Part shown: in pieces, positions 71-28,667 of the stretch
Position numbering within the stretch: the first letter of the stretch is position 1
How the letters are laid out: each line of letters starts with the position of its first letter
DNA from: Desulfuromonas sp.
GTDB lineage: Bacteria; Desulfobacterota; Desulfuromonadia; Desulfuromonadales; Desulfuromonadaceae
Assembly (NCBI GenBank): GCA_002869685.1
Contig: PKUE01000067.1
Coordinates: forward strand, 1 to 37,784
DNA: 37,784 nt
Direction of reading: 5' to 3'
Translations under genes and position numbers: made by a program
Notes under the pieces: model-generated
The model's database searches: none
What the model was told of the DNA's origin: nothing
Seen by the model: only the letters and a program-made list of their open reading frames with translations

Positions 71-147
71 TGGTGGCGGTGCAGAGATTCGAACTCCGGA
101 CACTGCGGATATGAGCCGCATGCTCTAACCAACTGAGCTACACCGCC
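71..147 (-). tRNA. tRNA-Met (CAT), elongator
   Basis: The minus strand folds into a complete 77-nt cloverleaf: acceptor stem GGCGGTG/CACCGCC, D-arm GCTC...GAGC, anticodon stem TGCGG/CCGCA with loop CTCATAT (anticodon CAT), T-arm with TTCGAAT, discriminator A and encoded CCA. The ordinary paired 1-72 end distinguishes it from the initiator tRNA next door. A CAT anticodon could also belong to tRNA-Ile2 (lysidine-modified); the general look favours elongator Met, but I cannot exclude Ile2 by eye. Confidence 0.88.
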
Positions 148-178
148 GAACTATGAAAACCGTTACCGGTTATTGATT

Positions 179-255
<77 letters not shown>

Positions 256-27359: not shown

Positions 27360-28667
27360 TTAGCCCCGACGTCCTTTAATACTTGCGCCACGCATAAAAC
27401 CTTCATAGGAGCGCGAAATCAGGTGAGACTCAATTTGCGATGCCGTATCCAGACCGACGCCAACAACGATCAACAGTGACGTGCCACCAAAATAAAACGG
27501 CACATTAAACTGACCAATCAACAACGTTGGCAGCACACAAACAACAGACACGTAAATCGCACCAGCAAAAGTAAGCCGACTCAGAACAACATCAAGAAAA
27601 TCTGAGGTTGCCTTTCCAGGACGAACTCCGGGGATATATCCACCCTGATTCTTGACATTTTCTGCCACATCAACAGGGTTAAAAGTCACAGCTGTGTAGA
27701 AGTAGCAAAAGAAAACAATAAATGCAACAAAAAACACATTATACAGCCAATGGCTCGGTGTCATCATCCCAGCAAGTTTCTGAACCCATTCAACATCAAC
27801 AAAGTTCGCAACAGTAGCCGGAAACATGATAATAGAGCTGGCAAAGATAGGCGGGATAACACCACTCATATTGATTTTGAGAGGCAAATGGCTGGATTGA
27901 CCGCCAAGGTTACGCATACCAACGACGCGCTTCGCATAATGAATTGGCACCCGCCGCTGAGCCCGCTCCATAAAGATAATCGCCATAATGACAACCACCA
28001 TCACCAGCAGCAAAAACAACATGGTCACTGGAGCCAGAGCCCCGGTACGCAGCAAGCGGACCGAGTTAACAATGGCCGATGGCATGTTTGCAATAATGCC
28101 GGCGAAGATGATCAACGAAATCCCATTGCCAATACCGCGCTCAGTGATCTGCTCACCAATCCACATGATAAATGCTGTGCCCGCAGTCAGGGTAATAACG
28201 GTCAAAACAACAAACCCAAACCCCTGATTCGACACTACCGGGTCTCCAGCAACATTCATTGACTGAAGACCGACGGCAATACCAGCACCCTGAACGACTG
28301 AAAGCAGCACCGTCCCGTAGCGGGTCCAACGAGTGATCACTTTACGCCCCTGTTCACCCTCTTTAGACAAACGCTGGACAGGCTCAAAAACAACGGTCAG
28401 CAGTTGCAGGATAATGGAGGCGCTGATATACGGCATAATGCCCAGTGCAAACACGGTCATGCGCTAGAGCGCACCACCGGTAAATGCACTGACCATCCCA
28501 AGAAGCGTTCCTTGAGAGCCTTCAAAAAAACTCGCTAAAACCTGACCATTAACCCCTGGGGTTGGGACGTGACAGCCGATACGATAGACGGCAAGCATCA
28601 TCATGGTAAACAGAATACGCTGACGCAATTCGGCAATACCGAAGATATTTTGAAGACTTTTAAACAA
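27360..28667 (-). pseudogene. secY: Protein translocase subunit SecY, interrupted by an in-frame TAG at codon 68
   Basis: Channel subunit of the SecYEG translocon in the inner membrane; the whole frame is 435 codons, the normal length with ten membrane helices. Codons 1-67 cover the N-terminus, first helix (LFTMMMLAVYRIGCHVPTPG) and the start of the plug (VSAFTGGAL). A TAG (28464-28466) follows, then CGC and ATG, and the frame resumes with TVFALGIMPYISAS. E. coli reads GGALSRASIFALG here, so the TAG replaces exactly one residue with no frameshift. Later blocks are intact (LSKEGEQGRKVI, TLTAGTAFIMWIGEQITERG, NGISLIIFAGI, GGQSSHLPLKINMSGVIPPI, TSLLIVVGVGLDT). TTG start, 2 bases after rplO, with GAGGTG 8 bases upstream. 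TAA stop. Sequence error, readthrough or reinitiation at 28460 are all possible; with one visible copy, loss of function is unlikely. Confidence 0.9.

Follow-up and report, generated by a model that had tools for sequence, protein, structure and literature searches.

How can a bacterium keep an in-frame stop codon within its only visible copy of secY? SecY is essential in the bacteria where it has been studied, as established from work in Escherichia coli. The question is raised by a 37,784-nucleotide stretch of Desulfuromonas sp. DNA (hereafter the window), in which the 435-codon secY frame running 28667-27363 on the reverse strand is interrupted by TAG at codon 68 (Table 1). The window comprises contig C153 in full, from a draft genome assembly (G000) of 3,116,757 bases in 186 contigs, rated 94.76% complete. 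If the stop were real, an essential gene would be living on readthrough or on a split SecY channel; if SecY were truly broken, a single translocon channel would withstand interruption at residue 68.

Table 1. The secY frame of the window, its internal stop and its two open pieces (window coordinates).
Feature	Position	Strand	Basis
secY frame, TTG start 28667, TAA 27362-27360, single interruption	27360..28667	-	frame listing, genome search, secY of relatives
In-frame TAG, codon 68; E, S, Q, K, R or T in 88 related loci	28464..28466	-	alignment with relatives
N-terminal open piece, 67 aa	28464..28667	-	mechanical ORF list
C-terminal open piece of 366 aa, starting at the ATG two codons past the TAG	27360..28460	-	mechanical ORF list

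The first-pass annotation of this DNA had described the TAG as replacing a single codon between conserved flanks, and this description stands. When the frame was read with X at the stop and compared with same-genus copies, homology was kept on both sides. Matches were obtained in eight of the nine other same-genus genomes; seven of the copies share 85-95% identity with the frame over nearly its whole length, the copy of G004 matches in two pieces and G003 gave no secY match in this search. The two G004 pieces (L010 and L011; G004:C45:9125-10254) overlap along their contig, and query residues 278-329 are absent from them, a pattern such as a deletion with a change of frame would give. The best match among named records belongs to the metagenome bin Desulfuromonadales bacterium C00003068, on a contig identical to that of G002, and a comparison of secY with phage sequences found nothing. 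A PF00344 search of the whole genome returned one match, the interrupted gene itself. The annotation was therefore right that a single secY is visible, and the second copy that it had offered as one way out was found nowhere in this 94.76% complete assembly.

A stop serving programmed readthrough or a split gene would be expected to be conserved among relatives. Codon 68 was compared over 90 loci, reduced to 89 by dropping the second G004 piece, that is, this genome and 88 others (at least one genome is counted twice, as L007 and L047 both derive from the contig of G002). No stop occurs in any of the 88, which all have a sense codon, as follows: Glu in 48, Ser in 16, Gln in 11, Lys in 6, Arg in 6 and Thr in 1. 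The four closest relatives (G001, G007, G008 and G009) all carry CAG, coding for Gln, and CAG becomes TAG through one transition (C to T). Among the options put forward in the annotation, a base error is the best supported, although, with CAG in the closest relatives, the change would be C to T and not the GAG-to-TAG of its example.

The two sides of the stop have diverged in a similar manner. Relative to G009, 4 non-synonymous and 24 synonymous codon changes are counted in the 67 codons before the TAG, and 17 and 169, respectively, in the 367 codons after it. Because conservation is similar before and after the stop, neither piece of secY shows a sign of decay. Such a pattern would also fit a very recent event, namely a true loss-of-function mutation carried by part of the sampled population. 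However, with one SecY found and the protein essential, cells of this kind should not persist, and we give this explanation little credence.

Checking unrelated genes for other types of stop helps to separate an assembly problem from recoding. Assembly errors or unrepresentative variants should leave lone stops scattered over conserved, mutually unrelated genes of the draft and absent from finished relatives, and amber suppression or reassignment should leave internal stops that are all TAG. Five contigs (C153, C42, C115, C77 and C91; 286,479 bases) were scanned against the matching stretches of the finished same-genus genomes G007 and G008, the gene set for each genome being the frames open in the two others, with matched genes of at least 100 aa. 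Flags upstream of starts, antisense to genes, in tRNA stretches, in the last residues of a gene or seen with one relative only were dropped by eye; two extra flags in tRNA-bearing sequence of C115 were dropped as well. In G000, 220 matched genes (65,236 aa) contained three credible internal stops, one TAG and two TAA over the five contigs: the secY TAG, and TAA in two other genes, at codon 7 in smc and at column 537 of 612 in the alignment of a ubiD-like gene. Both gene names, smc and ubiD, were assigned by reading the sequences. Two conserved genes unrelated to secY thus also carry a lone stop that the finished relatives lack, and the three stops are of mixed type. No other evidence here is as strong as this comparison.

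The smc stop (G000:C42:71290-71292, forward strand; L163:11290-11292) is preceded by Met and five residues identical in both finished relatives, replaces a codon for Glu in both and is followed by an open frame of about 1160 codons. The ubiD-like stop (G000:C91:33290-33292, reverse strand; L168:13290-13292) comes late in its frame, at a site where the finished relatives differ from each other (Cys and Ser); the gene may be dispensable and its stop could be a true mutation. Each of the controls raised two flags under the same procedure, G007 in 230 genes (68,549 aa) and G008 in 234 (69,119 aa). All four were rejected: three lie 7 to 10 codons ahead of the start codon of a conserved frame, and the fourth is antisense to a frame resembling that of an ABC transporter. 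When the window itself was compared with eight same-genus genomes, of which G007, G008 and G009 cover nearly all of it and the other five a part, the secY stop was the only one flagged within a credible gene, the remaining flags being judged by eye to lie upstream of starts or antisense.

The frequency of these stops can be converted into a rough substitution load. In this codon usage, 3.4% of random substitutions create a stop (46% TAG, 37% TAA and 17% TGA); by simple arithmetic, and assuming uniform errors, three stops in 65,236 codons correspond to about 90 substitutions, or about 4 to 5 per 10,000 bases. No clear case of a frame broken by insertion or deletion was found in the five contigs, apart from one truncated match. 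The latter (G000:C42:45440-46444) comprises the first 339 of 633 residues of its G007 counterpart, was obtained with G007 only and could be a truncation or a variable gene; the same contig also gave variable flagellin matches at C42:57512. Of 2286 sites invariant in the eight other same-genus genomes, 13 carry an odd residue in G000; the error rate just given would contribute about two, too few for discrimination. The corresponding counts are 0/2273 (G009), 5/2278 (G008), 11/2284 (G007) and 2/2275 (G001) in genomes with few or larger contigs and range from 24 to 125, the latter in G006, in four more fragmented ones, so that G000 shows no clear excess over other same-genus genomes. In a set of five genomes, the unique codon changes of G000 have the highest non-synonymous-to-synonymous ratio (0.243 versus 0.031-0.109); as unique changes of either class are likewise most numerous in G000, this ratio was given no weight.

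The annotation had also judged general recoding unlikely, noting that TAG ends at least 13 other genes of the window. An independent, hand-made list of 45 window genes agrees, with 13 TAG, 22 TAA and 10 TGA terminators. Over 435,181 bases, TAG terminates 74 of 392 frames of at least 200 codons, in a mechanically made list where antisense frames may be counted as well; this count is the sole part retained from a reference-free codon-usage scan for interrupted genes, the rest of which proved on reading to be mostly noise. Release factor RF1 is present, its match scoring 446.8 bits against a cut-off of 423.25 and covering residues 117-357. A truncation of RF1 was considered and rejected, as the match stops at the end of contig C10. 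TAG is an ordinary stop here, RF1 is encoded and none of the 43 tRNAs typed has a CUA anticodon. Another TAG, inside prfB, was set aside as an ordinary RF2 frameshift site, the stop lying upstream of the shift and in the other frame; at L155 (G000:C2), prfB has a usual-looking LRGYL-stop frameshift site.

The tRNA complement deserves some caution. All 43 RF00005 matches were typed by ARAGORN; the CUA anticodon is absent from these 43, and the assembly lacks some tRNAs altogether. Missing from the set are tRNA-Trp, tRNA-Ile(GAT), tRNA-Ala(TGC) and tRNA-Ser(GCT), and because tRNAs needed by every bacterium are absent among the 43 found, the draft evidently misses obligatory genes. A search for CTA followed by a T-arm gave three hits, exactly as many as its control; two of them fall inside tRNA-Glu(TTC) genes but away from the anticodon, and the third corresponds to no tRNA. 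At the contig end of the window (71-255, reverse strand) lie two adjacent tRNA-Met genes.

These data bear on the possibility that the stop is real and that low-efficiency readthrough, by a near-cognate tRNA-Gln or an unassembled suppressor tRNA, yields enough full-length SecY. The stop is indeed one base away from the Gln codon of the closest relatives, the genome encodes tRNA-Gln with either anticodon (CTG and TTG), and a suppressor could be missing from the assembly just as other tRNAs are. Against this stand an RF1 above its cut-off, even if its match is cut by the contig end, the frequent use of TAG as terminator in the mechanical list, the lack of a CUA anticodon among the tRNAs found and a number of CTA hits equal to the control. 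Moreover, an amber suppressor would not act on TAA, the codon found at both of the other lone stops. Readthrough of this kind appears very unlikely.

Some anaerobes of this broad group possess a pyrrolysine system, and TAG might accordingly stand for pyrrolysine, or for another residue, in this species. No PylS exceeded the cut-off in the genome search, the best score being 26.4 bits against 178.15; the profile passed its cut-off in one of 14 control genomes, none of which served as a bacterial PylS control. The two weak hits appear, on reading of their sequences and neighbours, to be an EpmA-like protein encoded beside efp and LysRS. As TAG is moreover a common terminator here, this decoding is extremely improbable. 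The pylS, the CUA-anticodon tRNA and the second secY that the annotation had proposed looking for were all searched for, and none of the three was found in this draft assembly. Its option of a suppressor tRNA, context-dependent readthrough or pyrrolysine is disfavoured by the tRNA set, by the PylS scores, by RF1 and by the TAA stops taken together, and the evidence gives no support to a working recoding signal.

A further option was termination followed by reinitiation at position 28460, the stop being real and SecY made in two pieces split at the plug. An ATG does lie at 28460-28458, two codons past the TAG with one codon between, and a GGTGGTG about 11 bases upstream of it pairs with the anti-Shine-Dalgarno core at -8.7 kcal/mol, the second strongest of nine starts tested (range -3.7 to -9.2). 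Reinitiation is therefore possible in principle; the site nevertheless bears no sign of having evolved for it. Both the ATG and the GGTGG derive from conserved residues (GGA and Met), and because intact close relatives share these residues, neither can be viewed as an adaptation. The plug is described as a short helix, TM2a, which seals the channel on the periplasmic side (PMC8082313). A break there would presumably place a new N-terminus outside, and the SecY fold suggests likewise that the C-terminal piece would begin on the membrane's outer face. For their part, the stops in smc and the ubiD-like gene have no adjacent start, the nearest start codons lying 12 and 39 codons downstream, respectively. 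A SecY split in this way is highly improbable. More broadly, a SecY that is truly broken at the plug, and kept working by leaky decoding of UAG or by separate translation of two pieces, seems quite unlikely.

From the assembled sequence and its comparison with relatives, we infer, with a probability of roughly 0.87, that the secY TAG reflects an error in the draft consensus or an unrepresentative variant. Either would explain a stray stop, since relatives have a sense codon and the same draft has other lone stops. The TAG would be a single-base nonsense change in the assembled secY sequence. It most likely arose as a consensus error in this metagenome-like draft or stems from a variant unrepresentative of the living population. 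It would have no function, and cells of the species would carry an intact secY. The stop is probably to be read as an assembly error or a stray variant and not as a new reading of the code, and the case is a caution that lone nonsense codons can occur in essential genes of draft genomes.

The comparison can be widened to the class, where a secY search gave a match in 239 of 277 genomes. Among the best 150 matches listed, three contain an internal stop: that of G000 and those of G022 and G047, two members of the same order whose assemblies consist of about 100 or more contigs each. Like the present gene, each of the latter has one stop in an otherwise full-length secY. The positions are unlike, TAG at query codon 205 in G022 (L157) and TAA at query codon 353 in G047 (L158), against codon 68 in G000, and because the position differs among the three genomes, nothing marks the plug as a programmed-stop site. 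A test stretch of G022 is identical to the named record JAJRRB010000096 (L049).

Among known systems, the programmed +1 frameshift of RF2 (prfB) offers a likeness, as a case in which living cells bypass a stop within a conserved gene. It differs in that secY has no need of a frame change and that the secY stop is not conserved. The locus also resembles the single-base consensus errors and minority variants of draft and metagenome assemblies, with which it shares one substitution, conserved flanks and intact relatives, as well as the occurrence of different stop codons in unrelated genes of the same genome.
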